Source: Colwellia sp. M166
GTDB taxonomy: Bacteria; Pseudomonadota; Gammaproteobacteria; Enterobacterales; Alteromonadaceae
Reading direction: 5' to 3'
Length of the DNA: 64,000 bases
Assembly (NCBI RefSeq): GCF_024585285.1
Contig: NZ_CP040755.1
Coordinates: 3,782,001-3,846,000 of the forward strand
Shown here one piece after another: positions 26,221 through 31,738 of this stretch (positions within the stretch are counted from its first letter, which is position 1; every line of letters starts with the position of its first letter). The notes beneath the pieces were generated by a model. That model was given only the letters and a program-made list of their open reading frames with translations. It was not told the DNA's origin and did not search any database. A program made the position numbers and the translations under genes.

Positions 26221-29118
26221 TTATGCTGAATTGAGAGCCATTAATGGAATAGAGATGATAATTTCACTGCCGTGCTCTTGATTATCATAAGTGTGAAATG
26301 TCGCATTAAATTTTTTCGCAACTTGACGAATATAATACATCGCCATGTCAAAATTAATTTTGCTATTAAACTGTGCAAAACTTTGCTCGTTGTCAGTTAT
26401 TTTTAACCAAACTTTATCTTTAGTTTCATTAATATGTATCGCGAAAATCCCACCATCACCATTGTTTATCGCGGCTAATATCGCTTCGTAAATAATACTA
26501 TAAATAGCGCTCTGAATTGCATAATCGATCTTTTCACAGGCAATCCCCAGTTGTACCGACACTAGCACATGATACTGCTGATGAAAGTAATCGGCTAGAT
26601 AAGGCAAGGCTACCGTTAAAGAGCTGCCAGATAGATTGCTAGGCTCAGTGTGGCTATGATGTACTTTAAGTTCCTTTAGGCAATCATTTATCAGGGTTAA
26701 TGTTTCCAGACTATGATCGCTACTTGGCTGCTTTAGCTCATTATTTATAATGGTTTGTGCTTTAATGTCTTGATCAATTAATGTTTTAATTTTCTTTAAT
26801 TTACGGCGGATGAGTGCAGTAGATTGACCATGGGTTTGTATCTCTTCATTTAATAGTTGATGGATATGACTGATTGAACGGCTACGTAGATACAATAACC
26901 AGATAATGAATAATAAACTTAAGGTAAAAAGCGTGAAGTAGATTATTCTACTATTCGGGTGCCAATACCAAGGATAAGCAACTTTTATATCGGTATAGGC
27001 TTTAAAATTACTCCATTGCCCTAAACTATTGGTTCCCATGATTTCAATGTGATAGTTACCGGAAGACAAGCCCGTTAATGTTAACTGGTTGCCATTAATA
27101 CCATGCCACTTACCGTTGTTAAGTTGATATTTAAACTGTTTTTCTTGTCCGGGTCTAAAATCTAAACTAGCAAGCTCTAATGTAACAACATCATTTGATG
27201 AATCTATTTCAATAGTGTGACTTAATAGCTGTGATTTACCTGATGCGATAGTTTTACTGATATAAATGTTAGGATTAATGGCTTCTTCTTGTAGTAAAGA
27301 AACTTCTAATACCCCGCCATAATGGGCAGCATAAACCATGTTATCCAGTAGTATGGGTTTCTTAGTGAAAGTGTATTGCTCAGTATTAGCAACCATTTTT
27401 AGTTCATAGCTATCAGGATTGAGTTGATATAAACCAGGTCGACCTGATATCCAAATTTCATCATTAATAACACTCATATAGCCAAAAATGATGTTTTTGG
27501 CAAAATGGGCCAATAGCTCACCAGATAAATTATAAACAAAAAAACCATCACCTTTAGTGGCAACATAAACTTTATTGTTATAAGCCAATAAAGATATTAC
27601 TTTGTTTTCACCTAAATTTTGTATCTTTTGACTAAGATTATTACGGGTGTTAACGATATCTATGCCGGCGGGTGTTGCAACCCATACCATGTCATTTGCT
27701 AGTGGTAGAGAATTAATCGCTTCGTTTGATCTTAAATGACTATCGGCTAGATGTTTTACGATAGTTTTTGAGCTTAAATCGTAAATATAGACGCCCTGAT
27801 TATCACTTGCTAAATAAAGTTTATTATCTTTAAAACTAAGATCAAGTAATAGCATATTGTTATCTGGAAAGTTGACTCGTGCGAGTAATTTTTTATTAAC
27901 ACTGTATTGCCATAAACCATCAAAAGTTGCGATATAGATATTATTTTTATGACTATAGAGGTCGGTAATTATTTTACCTTTAGCGCTAAAGCTCTTATTA
28001 ATATCTTTAGGTAGTACCGACTTATTTTTAATCAGTTCATGTAAACCTGTCCCGTAGCTGCCTATAAAAATTTGTTCATTGTGAGCGGTTAAAGCGAGAG
28101 AATTAATTGAAGTATTAAATATCTTACGATGATTTCTATTGAATGACGGTGTCATTCTTTTCACTCCTTGACTGGTTAAAAGCCATAAAACACCGGTATT
28201 ATCATGAAATAATTCATCAACAAAAGGTAACTTATTATTTGGGAATGCATGTGATAATTTAGTGAAATCACTTAGGGCATAATGCTCAATATAACCTAGT
28301 TCATTGATCGCGAAAATACTATTACGACTATTAGCAATAGCTAAGGTCGAAATGGGACTATCAACGGAAACCTCTTGACGATTATTCTGATCATTTATAG
28401 TTATTAGCTTACTGTTTTTGGCAATAACTACAGTATTTTCAGATGATGTAATTGCGGTAGCACTACCAGCTTCAATTAAAAACAACTTGCCATCAAGTAG
28501 CTTGTAAACACCTTTTGTTGTTGAAAAGTAGATGTTTTTTTTAGTTTTTTTTATTTTTTTTATATCAATGTTGGCTGAAAGTAATTGGGGTTTTAGTGAC
28601 CTTGAATTAACTTGATAGAGCTTATCTTTAACAGAAAGATAGTAATAACCATAGTGCTCAATCAGTTGATAAATACTATTTTCCTCAATATCTAGAGCAA
28701 TTTGCGTAGCACTGCCGTTTGAGGTGTTAAACAACCATAATTTATGGGTTTCAGTAGCGACTAATAATTTGTCATCATCAATGGGATAAATATCATTTAT
28801 CCAATTAAAGGGTAAAGGCCAATTTTTATTATTGCTATTGAAAATGATCTTATCTTCGCTGTCATAGCGAATTAATCCATTTGTTGTTGATAACCAAATA
28901 AAGCCTTTGCTATCCTGTATAATGGCATTGCTAGTGATTAAGCGCTTAGTTAGCTCTTGTGCACTTGAAACTGTTGTTAATAAACAGCATAAAACCCAAG
29001 GCAGTAGCAATGATAATTGCCACTGTCTAGGCTTAATCACTAAGGATTTACTTGTTTTATTAGGTAATACTTGCTGGCGCTTCTTTAGGCGGGTGGCGCT
29101 CTTGGCCACATGAAGCAT
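26221..29118 (-). CDS. Two-component-regulator-propeller sensor with degenerate kinase-like end
   Basis: About 965 aa from ATG 29118; GTG 29040, just past the upstream stop, would give an ideal signal peptide (IKPRQWQLSLLLPWVLCC...VSSAQE) and is a real alternative, and ATG 29244 is less likely. The periplasmic part holds many WD-like propeller strands (SKGFIWLSTTNGLIRYD, TGVLWLLTSQGVKR), a Y_Y_Y domain near FKYQLNNGKWHGINGN, one transmembrane helix (IIYFTLFTLSLLFIIWLLYL), a coiled region and a C-terminal HATPase-like fold. The N-box EAILAAINN is recognisable, but the G1 box reads ITDNEQSF without DxGxG, and no clear HisKA motif is present. It may be a pseudo-kinase sensor. Confidence 0.8.
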   Translation of the reverse strand: MLHVAKSATRLKKRQQVLPNKTSKSLVIKPRQWQLSLLLPWVLCCLLTTVSSAQELTKRLITSNAIIQDSKGFIWLSTTNGLIRYDSEDKIIFNSNNKNWPLPFNWINDIYPIDDDKLLVATETHKLWLFNTSNGSATQIALDIEENSIYQLIEHYGYYYLSVKDKLYQVNSRSLKPQLLSANIDIKKIKKTKKNIYFSTTKGVYKLLDGKLFLIEAGSATAITSSENTVVIAKNSKLITINDQNNRQEVSVDSPISTLAIANSRNSIFAINELGYIEHYALSDFTKLSHAFPNNKLPFVDELFHDNTGVLWLLTSQGVKRMTPSFNRNHRKIFNTSINSLALTAHNEQIFIGSYGTGLHELIKNKSVLPKDINKSFSAKGKIITDLYSHKNNIYIATFDGLWQYSVNKKLLARVNFPDNNMLLLDLSFKDNKLYLASDNQGVYIYDLSSKTIVKHLADSHLRSNEAINSLPLANDMVWVATPAGIDIVNTRNNLSQKIQNLGENKVISLLAYNNKVYVATKGDGFFVYNLSGELLAHFAKNIIFGYMSVINDEIWISGRPGLYQLNPDSYELKMVANTEQYTFTKKPILLDNMVYAAHYGGVLEVSLLQEEAINPNIYISKTIASGKSQLLSHTIEIDSSNDVVTLELASLDFRPGQEKQFKYQLNNGKWHGINGNQLTLTGLSSGNYHIEIMGTNSLGQWSNFKAYTDIKVAYPWYWHPNSRIIYFTLFTLSLLFIIWLLYLRSRSISHIHQLLNEEIQTHGQSTALIRRKLKKIKTLIDQDIKAQTIINNELKQPSSDHSLETLTLINDCLKELKVHHSHTEPSNLSGSSLTVALPYLADYFHQQYHVLVSVQLGIACEKIDYAIQSAIYSIIYEAILAAINNGDGGIFAIHINETKDKVWLKITDNEQSFAQFNSKINFDMAMYYIRQVAKKFNATFHTYDNQEHGSEIIISIPLMALNSA

Positions 29119-29509
29119 AGATTTTTGGTATTTTCTCAACAGATTCAGGCTTTTGTACCAACAGATAAGTAGGCTTGCGAGGGTCGCTATCATGCTGTTT
29201 ATTTGCCCATGCTTTACGCACTTTTTTCGCATGCTCTTTTCCATATTTTACTTCAAATGCCGTGGCAATTATTTCGACCCCAAAATCATCCATCACCATG
29301 ATGGCATTGTCATGGTAGCCACTTGTGCTATCAAAATCTATATCAACAGTTAAAATCTTATCGTTAGGTAATACCAGATCCGCCTTTAACTTAGCAACAA
29401 CAGCTCGATCTTGATGCGCTTTAAGTTGGCTTAAATTAGGTTTTTCCGATAAGTCATAGACTAAGTTAATATCTTTAGCAACACGTCTTTCTTTTTGTAA
29501 TGCAGACAT
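29060..29509 (-). CDS. Hypothetical protein of unknown family
   Basis: 149 aa from ATG 29509, which has AAGGGA 6 nt upstream (ATG 29515 is too close to it). I do not recognise a family. The sequence is soluble-looking and charged, without signal peptide or helix spans. The central VDIDFDSTSGYHDNAIMVMD, with many Asp residues, and the Lys-rich KYGKEHAKKVRKAWANKQ are notable. It overlaps or abuts the start of the large sensor gene, so the two are probably co-expressed. Function unknown. Confidence 0.65.
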   Translation of the reverse strand: MSALQKERRVAKDINLVYDLSEKPNLSQLKAHQDRAVVAKLKADLVLPNDKILTVDIDFDSTSGYHDNAIMVMDDFGVEIIATAFEVKYGKEHAKKVRKAWANKQHDSDPRKPTYLLVQKPESVEKIPKIYASCGQERHPPKEAPASIT

Positions 29510-29515
29510 AATCAT

Positions 29516-29874
29516 TCCCTTGTTTTAGTTGTATTTTTATATAATTTACTGTTAATGACTTTTTGATTATAACGAACAAAAGTGTTAATGCTAGTATTAA
29601 CATTATTATTAAACTATTGAGAGCCATTCATTGGCACTTGATAGCTTGTAATACCAATTTTACTAAGTTTTCTGAGTGGGAATAAACTTGGTATAAAGTA
29701 GTGTTAGATAAATTTGAACTATCTCTGGTTCGATAGGCACGCGACTAGGTTGTGTTAATATTAAATAGTTGCCAATTGCTACTATTTAGTCAATTCAAGA
29801 TATCTTTTCGCACTAAGTTTATTCGTAGCCGATAGTTGTCTAGGGTTCTGTAATGTTATTGAGGTCTGTTATTA
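29516..29874. other. Intergenic region with a short palindromic repeat
   Basis: About 360 nt without a credible gene between the divergent hypothetical gene and the oxygenase. It contains one copy of a roughly 48-nt inverted-repeat element (separate entry) and otherwise AT-rich sequence that must hold both promoters. GAGGT at about 29860 is a good ribosome site for the ATG at 29875. Confidence 0.5.
29649..29696. repeat. Short palindromic repeat, copy 1 (MITE/REP-like)
   Basis: Ends AATACCAATTTTACT and, inverted, TATACCAAGTTTATT match at 12 of 15 positions; the middle reads TCTGAGTGGGA. The same element, about 6 nt longer, occurs at 55709-55763. Both copies are intergenic. Confidence 0.75.
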
Positions 29875-29931
29875 ATGCCATGGCTTGAAAAGTTAGCAAA
29901 GAATGGTTTTGTGATATGTAATAATTTTTTA

Positions 29932-29970
29932 CCTTACAATGAAGCCTTACAATGAAGCCTTACAATTAAG
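29932..29970 (+). repeat. 13-bp tandem repeat at the oxygenase start
   Basis: CCTTACAATGAAG occurs at 29932-29944 and 29945-29957, and a third copy with one change (T for G) at 29958-29970. Removing one unit joins the frame beginning at ATG 29875 to the oxygenase frame. Each intact copy contains an ATG. Confidence 0.93.
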
Positions 29971-30541
29971 AAATGAAATTATTAAGCTTCATCATATTAA
30001 AAAATGGAATCTGTTAACCGCTCCATCTCAACCGCTTAGTCGAATAAAAAATAATATTTCTACTAAGGTAATTGATAAAAGTAAACATGTGCAAGCAATT
30101 AAAGCACTGAAGCGAAGGCGATTTTCTTTCTCATTTTATCGTTCAAGTAACAAACATCAACAGCAGCATGGTCAGTCACTTTGTCATCAAACCATTGGTA
30201 ATAAAGTTATTGAACTGCTTAAAAGCTGTGATTTAATAGCGGGGGAGCTGCAGGATTCATTTTTTGCGTTATTTAATAAAGGGCAATTTATCAGCTACCA
30301 TACTGACGGAGGTGCTGGAAAATATGCTTTTATTTATCAATTATCAATAGGATGGCAAGAGCGGTTTGGTGGCCAATTAGAACTTTATCCAAGAAAGATC
30401 AAATTCTATAAGCGAGTTATAACCCCCAAATTTAGTACCCTGACTATTTTAAAGTTATCGCACCCGATGCCGCATAGCGTCAGGTTGCTGAATAATCCAG
30501 TATATAAACATCGAATTACTATATCAGGTTGGGTAGAATGA
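29939..30541 (+). CDS. 2OG-Fe(II) oxygenase, 5' end altered by a 13-bp duplication
   Basis: 200 aa as read from ATG 29939. The iron/2-oxoglutarate motif is clear: YHTDGGAGKYAFIYQLS supplies HxD, HSVRLL the distal His and HRITISGWV the Arg, so it resembles PKHD-type/SM-20-like hydroxylases. The likely original start is ATG 29875, with a good GAGGT ribosome site, reading MPWLEKLAKNGFVICNNFL then PYNEALQ, which looks like the usual beta-strand start of this family. A 13-bp duplication now ends that frame at TGA 29953, and a repeat-encoded ATG restarts 14 nt earlier. The current protein would lack about 19 residues. UbiF follows 18 nt downstream. Confidence 0.82.
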   Translation: MKPYNEALQLRNEIIKLHHIKKWNLLTAPSQPLSRIKNNISTKVIDKSKHVQAIKALKRRRFSFSFYRSSNKHQQQHGQSLCHQTIGNKVIELLKSCDLIAGELQDSFFALFNKGQFISYHTDGGAGKYAFIYQLSIGWQERFGGQLELYPRKIKFYKRVITPKFSTLTILKLSHPMPHSVRLLNNPVYKHRITISGWVE

Positions 30542-30559
30542 CCTTATGTAAACAAGGTT

Positions 30560-31738
30560 ATGAAAATCATTATGAAGCAATTTGATTGTGTTGTTGTTGG
30601 TGCAGGAATGGTCGGGGCAGCGAGTGCTTTGTCATTGGCTGAATTAGGCCTGAAAGTTGCCGTTATCGAAAAACACACCCCCGTCGCTTTCTCTGCTGAG
30701 CAAGCATTTGATTTAAGAGTATCTGCTATTTCATTAGCTTCAGAGCAGTTATTACAGCAATTAGGTGCGTGGCAGCAACTGCAACAGTGGCGCATGTGCC
30801 CATATAAGCGTCTAGGAGTGTCGGAATGTCAGTCCAGTTATACTGAATTTGATGCTAGTGACATCGGACAAGCGCATTTAGGTCATATCATTGAGAATCG
30901 ATTGATACAGCTTTCCTTGTGGCAAAGATTACAACAACACAGCAATATAACGTTATTATGTCCTGAAAGCTTAATTAAACTTGAGCAACACGCAACTGAA
31001 GTTGAGCTAACCTTAACCTCAAAAAAATTACGGAGTAAAATTGTTATTGGCGCTGATGGTGCGAACTCCTATGTTCGTAAGTTAGCTAATATTGGTACAA
31101 CAGGTTGGGGTTATGCGCAATCAGCCATGCTAATTAATGTTCGCACTGAAAAATCACAACAAGATATTACTTGGCAGCAATTTTTCCAAACAGGTCCGCT
31201 TGCTATGTTGCCTATGCCAGGAAGTTTTGCCTCACTGGTTTGGTATCAAACTAAAGATGAGATAAAGCGTCTATCAGCATTAGCTAATAGCAGTTTAGAA
31301 CAGGAAGTCATGCAACATTTCCCTAGTAAACTGGGTCGTATTGAAGTTATTAATAAAGCCGCATTCCCATTAACTAGGCGTCACGCCAATCAATACCATA
31401 AAGGTCGTGTTTTGCTGCTTGGTGATGCCGCACATACGATAAACCCTATGGCCGGTCAAGGCGTTAATTTAGGTTTTAAAGATGTTAAAGCCTTGCAGCA
31501 TGTTATTGCACAAGCTATTGGGAACGGCGAATCATGGCAACAAGCAGATGTTTTGGCTCGTTACCAGCAAAAGAGACGGACAGATAATTTATTGATGATG
31601 ACGGCAATGGATGCATTATATTTATCATTTGGTCATGTTTCACCTTTAGTCAAGTTAGCTCGTAATGCCGGTTTGACTATGGTAAATAAGCTACCAAAGT
31701 TAAAGAACAAAGCACTGGCTTATGCTTGTGGTATTTAA
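30560..31738 (+). CDS. ubiF: Ubiquinone-biosynthesis FAD-dependent monooxygenase, UbiF-like
   Basis: 392 aa flavin hydroxylase of the UbiH/COQ6 family. The N-terminal dinucleotide motif is CVVVGAGMVGAASALSLAE, the DG motif GADGANSYVRK and the second FAD motif GDAAHTINPMAGQGVNLG. Segments DLRVSAISLASEQLLQQLG and MCPYKRLGVSE resemble E. coli UbiF, which hydroxylates C6 of the demethoxyquinone ring. Assignment within the family (UbiF rather than UbiI or UbiH) is likely, not certain. Start 30560 or 30572 cannot be decided, as the AAGG is too near the first and far from the second. Confidence 0.87.
   Translation: MKIIMKQFDCVVVGAGMVGAASALSLAELGLKVAVIEKHTPVAFSAEQAFDLRVSAISLASEQLLQQLGAWQQLQQWRMCPYKRLGVSECQSSYTEFDASDIGQAHLGHIIENRLIQLSLWQRLQQHSNITLLCPESLIKLEQHATEVELTLTSKKLRSKIVIGADGANSYVRKLANIGTTGWGYAQSAMLINVRTEKSQQDITWQQFFQTGPLAMLPMPGSFASLVWYQTKDEIKRLSALANSSLEQEVMQHFPSKLGRIEVINKAAFPLTRRHANQYHKGRVLLLGDAAHTINPMAGQGVNLGFKDVKALQHVIAQAIGNGESWQQADVLARYQQKRRTDNLLMMTAMDALYLSFGHVSPLVKLARNAGLTMVNKLPKLKNKALAYACGI

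Follow-up and report, generated by a model that had tools for sequence, protein, structure and literature searches.

One bacterial PHD2/EGLN1-like prolyl hydroxylase, PPHD of Pseudomonas putida, is reported to act on EF-Tu (PMC7864055). A survey of Mycobacterium tuberculosis reports that frameshift microduplications and short indels at repeats give rise to null alleles or 'frameshift scars' (PMC8339072). Here we describe, in a 64,000-nt stretch (hereafter the window; positions 3,782,001-3,846,000) of the single-contig Colwellia sp. M166 genome, a gene predicted to encode a PHD2-like 2OG-Fe(II) oxygenase, the 5' part of which carries a 13-bp tandem duplication. We consider it very likely that this duplication is recent and of the replication-slippage (microhomology) type, and that it produced a null or strongly hypomorphic allele of a dispensable accessory gene. 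As a type of mutation, a short slippage duplication that disrupts an accessory gene is ordinary.

The unit CCTTACAATGAAG is present on the forward strand as two identical tandem copies (29932-29944 and 29945-29957), followed at 29958-29970 by a third copy, CCTTACAATTAAG, which agrees with it at 12 of 13 positions. The array as a whole (29932-29970) is 13 nt longer than the corresponding stretch of the intact form and obtained the top score (71) among the 27 rows of the Tandem Repeats Finder (TRF) output for the window. The oxygenase gene is split in two. The ATG at 29875, which lies 9 nt downstream of a ribosome-binding-like GAGGT (29861-29865), opens a frame of 26 codons (MPWLEKLAKNGFVICNNFLPYNEALQ) that corresponds to the native N-terminus of the gene and ends at the TGA at 29953-29955. 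The ATG at 29939 opens a forward-strand frame of 200 codons that extends to 30541, matches 2OG-FeII_Oxy_4/_3 (PF13661/PF13640) and encodes an N-terminally truncated oxygenase. This second ATG is located within the duplicated unit, 14 nt ahead of the upstream stop; like the tandem copies, the 26-codon frame and the GAGGT, it was found where the initial annotation of this DNA had placed it. Inspection of the sequence upstream of ATG 29939 (AATAATTTTTTACCTTACA) revealed no Shine-Dalgarno-like motif; to reinitiate there, a ribosome that has reached the upstream stop would therefore have to move back 14 nt.

An intact form of the protein can be found among the 71 proteins recovered by a protein search. 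This protein, P0003, is 217 aa long, shares 99% identity with the window protein and begins MPWLEKLAKNGFVICNNFLPYNEALQLRNE. Its residues 1-26 match the upstream frame of the window at 100% and its residues 20-217 match the downstream frame at 99% (196 of 198 residues, with two differences), the two matches overlapping by seven residues. Because both frames are joined in P0003, the proposal of the initial annotation that one unit fewer would restore a normal protein is borne out, as is its expectation of a normal-looking joined N-terminus, which is contiguous and equivalent in 11 of 12 genus orthologues that do not carry the array. Judging by this level of identity, P0003 is presumably conspecific with the window strain. 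Both P0003 and a second close match, P0064, were compared as protein records. The 90% cluster of P0003 has 12 members, distributed over 30 contigs, and some of these members possibly represent the window's own form.

An orthologue of the oxygenase is present in 13 of 17 genus genomes (including G000, the genome of the window itself), and the 12 relatives are 65-82% identical. In the species collection, Cognaticolwellia aestuarii KCTC 12480 was found to be 82% identical at this protein, and the window strain is most likely a Cognaticolwellia. Comparison of the N-termini, together with an alignment in which each of the 12 relatives has a 13-nt gap where the window has its extra unit, showed that the array is absent from every one of them. 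The converse situation, in which all relatives carry three units and homologues start at the equivalent of 29939, was not seen, since 11 of the 12 start at the native N-terminus. Most proteins in the search (65 of 71) are 215-241 aa long. We also observed three late-starting homologues, P0035 (167 aa), P0056 (196 aa) and P0065 (167 aa), whose late starts may reflect additional broken alleles, the ends of contigs or wrongly called starts.

The imperfect copy at 29958-29970 had initially been taken for an older repeat unit and, by extension, for a sign that the array has been changing. Neither point survives comparison with the relatives, which have the same codons at this position. In the 11 intact relatives, neighbouring 13-mers at the equivalent codons share only 4-8 of 13 positions, compared with 12 of 13 in the window. 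The third copy is therefore ordinary ancestral coding sequence (LQLR) whose likeness to the unit arose by drift.

The second three-unit sequence, P0064, is a 135-aa protein encoded on a contig of 17,905 bases. It starts MKPYNEALQ, which requires three units, as the two-unit form gives MKPYN and a stop from the same ATG. P0064 has an additional 4-nt deletion, with four equivalent placements within window positions 30255-30261; among deletions of 1-15 nt starting at 30189-30358, only this size reproduced the protein. Combined with its three-unit start, the deletion means that the P0064 copy has two disabling changes, although the second frameshift may be a sequencing error, and P0064 may represent the window strain in a different assembly. 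Both three-unit sequences carry L where P0003 has R (IIKLHH versus IIKRHH). The window and P0064 probably share a genuine extra unit. A second search with P0064 as the query returned 15 proteins, among which there was no further near-identical or conspecific form.

We scanned 1,264,000 bases for tandem duplications (the window and sixty 20-kb stretches, equivalent to 26% of the 4,844,971 bases of the genome), taking exact copies only and filtering out simple repeats. The scan recovered 123 duplications with units of 7-60, of which 93 had a unit length that is not a multiple of three. Nineteen of these 93 had a unit of 10-60, and a shorter array would lengthen a frame (at least 120 aa) at just one of them, the array at 29932. 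The same test was passed by four of the 74 with units of 7-9 (L084:9708, L102:9733, L118:7870 and L124:2868). The largest gain, at L118:7870, was rejected as a gene-breaking array as it marks the boundary of two separate genes, which indicates that the longer-frame test yields false joins. The 29932 duplication exceeds chance expectation, and the scanned 26% of the genome showed no family of gene-breaking switch arrays with units of at least 10. A search for plasmid spread (near mode) found no near match to the locus among 72,556 plasmid records.

The oxygenase has a predicted double-stranded beta-helix fold of the PHD type. Across 72 sequences, residues H138, D140, H196 and R209 of P0003 each reach at least 90% conservation, and the window frame retains all four; we take the first three to be the HxD...H metal triad and R209 to be the 2OG-binding arginine. 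The AlphaFold model of P0003, residue 1 of which aligns with PHD2 196, contains a confident helix (residues 2-10) and strand (residues 12-16; block pLDDT 85 and 92, respectively), and a product initiated at ATG 29939 would be expected from this model to be without both. At position 183, 69 of the 70 aligned proteins with a residue there have N, and only the window protein has S. Since 51 of 198 columns are at least 97% conserved, approximately one random change in four lands in such a column, and N183S is thus only a weak sign of relaxed constraint. P0003 had no match in NCBIfam.

These observations suggest how the allele could have arisen. In the two-unit form, codons 20-28 would hold CCTTACAAT GAAG CCTTACAAT TAAG, in which a 9-bp sequence is directly repeated at a spacing of 13 bp; slippage between the two repeats would have duplicated one 13-bp unit. 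Translation from the native start would then end after 26 codons, and any oxygenase would have to come from weak reinitiation at ATG 29939, without the first helix and strand; with an early stop and only a weak, N-truncated product, the allele would be null or a strong hypomorph. Intact orthologues with the frames joined, namely P0003 and 11 of the 12 relatives, the latter without the array, make a fresh mutation the better of the two options that the initial annotation had offered. Two observations speak against inactivation: the catalytic residues are intact in a downstream frame that still matches P0003 at 196 of 198 residues, and the remaining frame is open, with an ATG inside the duplicated unit. 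Such limited decay is expected of an allele that is either very young or still useful. Reversion by dropping one unit is physically possible, and nothing indicates that the array is kept for that purpose. An automatic annotation pipeline would probably record an intact 200-aa oxygenase starting at 29939 and overlook the frameshift.

The window allele fits a pattern in which this dispensable gene has been lost repeatedly in the genus. In G007 (L008, G007:C1:619234-619827), the orthologue is missing 1 nt at about codons 20-22 and its frame is broken there, which may be a sequencing error. The position of this break nearly coincides with the site of the 13-bp insertion in the window, and the two are independent events. 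Programmed frameshifting common to the window and G007 was considered and rejected, because +13 (+1 mod 3) and -1 need opposite corrections. In four of the 17 genus genomes (G011-G014), only a 3' relic of the oxygenase gene was found (AHKHRI.ISGWVE*), situated right before the gene for a UbiF-like hydroxylase; these four may reflect one ancestral loss event. Across the family, 15 of 196 sampled genomes have the oxygenase gene at E <= 1e-15, eight of them in the window's genus, and the match starts at residue 18 in G000, at residue 20 in G007 and at residues 1 to 7 in the other 13. By all appearances in these genomes, loss of the oxygenase gene recurs in the genus and the gene is dispensable and accessory. 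A single genus thus displays the gene intact, hit once, apparently hit twice and reduced to relics, and illustrates how decay begins.

The next gene on the same strand, which encodes an FAD hydroxylase of the UbiH/UbiF family, lies at 30572-31738, 30 nt past the oxygenase stop (one search on it used 30575-31738). It is present in 17 of 17 genus genomes and adjoins the oxygenase gene in all 13 that have one. A 36-nt block at the oxygenase 3' end (30506-30541, forward strand) is conserved as DNA in the genus and kept where the gene is lost, and represents a candidate promoter or regulatory element. In 12 genus sequences (the window and L008 included; L013 left out for a one-codon insertion), synonymous-codon identity is 0.92 over the 13 sense codons that precede the stop (30500-30538) and 0.51 over the remainder of the gene from about codon 40; for the UbiF-like gene in 13 genomes, the best 13-codon window reaches 0.69 and the mean is 0.49. 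Between pairs of relic genomes (L035, L037, L038 and L039) the block is 0.95-0.97 identical, whereas the 150 aligned columns upstream of it, with gaps counted as differences, are 0.34-0.54 identical in five of six pairs and 0.90 in the closest (L037/L038). The DNA from the block to the UbiF-like start is likewise kept (0.87-1.00), so that the conserved stretch continues to that gene.

Within three mismatches, the block occurs once in each of eight genus genomes and in none of other genera in a scan of 196 family genomes, a set to which G011-G014 do not belong. In seven oxygenase loci of other genera, the tail is similar in L067 and L069, where the UbiF-like gene is within about 30 nt, and less similar in L071-L073 (UbiF-like gene some 80-110 nt away) and in L068 and L070 (UbiF-like gene not found in the flank), a pattern that is confounded by relatedness. 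TAGAAT can be found at 30534-30539, with TCGAAT 17 nt upstream. A sigma-70 scan of 29500-30700 gave five sites against 4.7 expected from shuffles, none of them on the forward strand at 30511-30539, and a promoter reading is consequently without consensus support. An RNA element search gave two matches, both below gathering scores and within the UbiF-like gene. The simplest reading is that the UbiF-like gene possibly has its promoter or a regulatory site in this block. Here a stretch of coding sequence persists after the rest of its gene has gone and perhaps serves the next one, which makes the locus a testable example of a promoter lying within coding DNA. On the upstream side, a 1007-aa beta-propeller sensor-like ORF (26221-29244, reverse strand) overlaps at its 5' end by 185 nt with a 151-aa ORF (29060-29515, reverse strand) that has no Pfam match at E <= 0.1; the true start of the longer ORF is probably further in.

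The other option in the initial annotation was a phase-variable contingency locus, in which high-rate changes in unit number toggle the oxygenase between full-length and truncated or off states and the switch itself is selected. The unit length, not being a multiple of three, suits such a switch. Among proteins, the joined form (P0003) exists alongside the three-unit form (the window and P0064); in G007, another member of the genus, the frame is interrupted at almost this codon; and frameshift-and-restore silencing has been reported in another bacterium (PMC8339072). However, only two and three unit equivalents were seen, the longer form consisting of two exact copies and one 12/13 copy and not of a long array. 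The baseline is two imperfect copies, and none of the 12 genus relatives has the array. The scanned part of the genome holds no other gene-breaking candidate with a unit of at least 10, and the unrelated second frameshift of P0064 would not be undone by a change in unit number. Typical targets of contingency loci are surface structures, whereas the product here is a predicted hydroxylase. A literature search on Colwellia phase variation by tandem repeats gave nothing on topic, its sole match concerning Azospirillum two-component systems. Searches for work on the reversibility of short duplications turned up mainly papers on other subjects, apart from PMC8339072. Given the imperfect baseline copies, the array-free relatives and P0064, we regard a contingency locus as unlikely. 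It is distinctly improbable, too, that the N-terminal end of the gene repeatedly serves as an on/off site through which an oxygen-linked modification is silenced reversibly, with the 3' end staying constant as the neighbour's promoter. This idea draws on two species whose frames broke independently within a few codons of each other (the 13-bp gain in the window and the 1-nt loss in G007) and on the coexistence of intact and broken forms in apparently one species; if true, a PHD-like oxygen-dependent hydroxylase would be reversibly silenced with the promoter of a ubiquinone-biosynthesis neighbour preserved in its tail.

Reinitiation at 29939 could instead make a shortened yet useful oxygenase, as the position of this start codon in the duplicated unit, the open frame with intact HxD...H...R residues and the recorded start of P0056 (56% identity) at about the same residue, with those of P0035 and P0065 later, might suggest. 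We give this functional new allele very little credence, because no ribosome-binding-like site precedes 29939, the product would be without the initial helix and strand of the P0003 model, and the late starts of the few homologues shorter than 215-241 aa may be start calls, contig ends or broken alleles. That the extra unit is an assembly or sequencing error is extremely improbable. The joined form P0003 exists and P0064 could derive from another assembly of the same strain, but P0064 starts, on its own 17.9-kb contig, with a peptide requiring three units, and sequencing platforms of any kind rarely err by inserting a clean 13-nt unit into a short unique context. A young inactivating duplication remains our preferred explanation.

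Compared with PPHD and PHD2, the window gene is distinguished by its UbiF-like neighbour and by being frameshifted, and a PDB sequence search gave no match at E <= 0.01. The locus is like familiar repeat-mediated contingency loci in having a unit that is not a multiple of three near the coding 5' end and two length forms at the protein level, and unlike them in its baseline of two imperfect units, its lack of a long array, the absence of the array from all 12 relatives and its atypical target gene. Unlike the M. tuberculosis survey, ours is a single case from a marine gammaproteobacterium in which no reversion or scar was seen; it resembles the frameshift scars reported there in that a short indel, not a multiple of three in length, disrupts a gene in part of a species and could in principle revert (PMC8339072).
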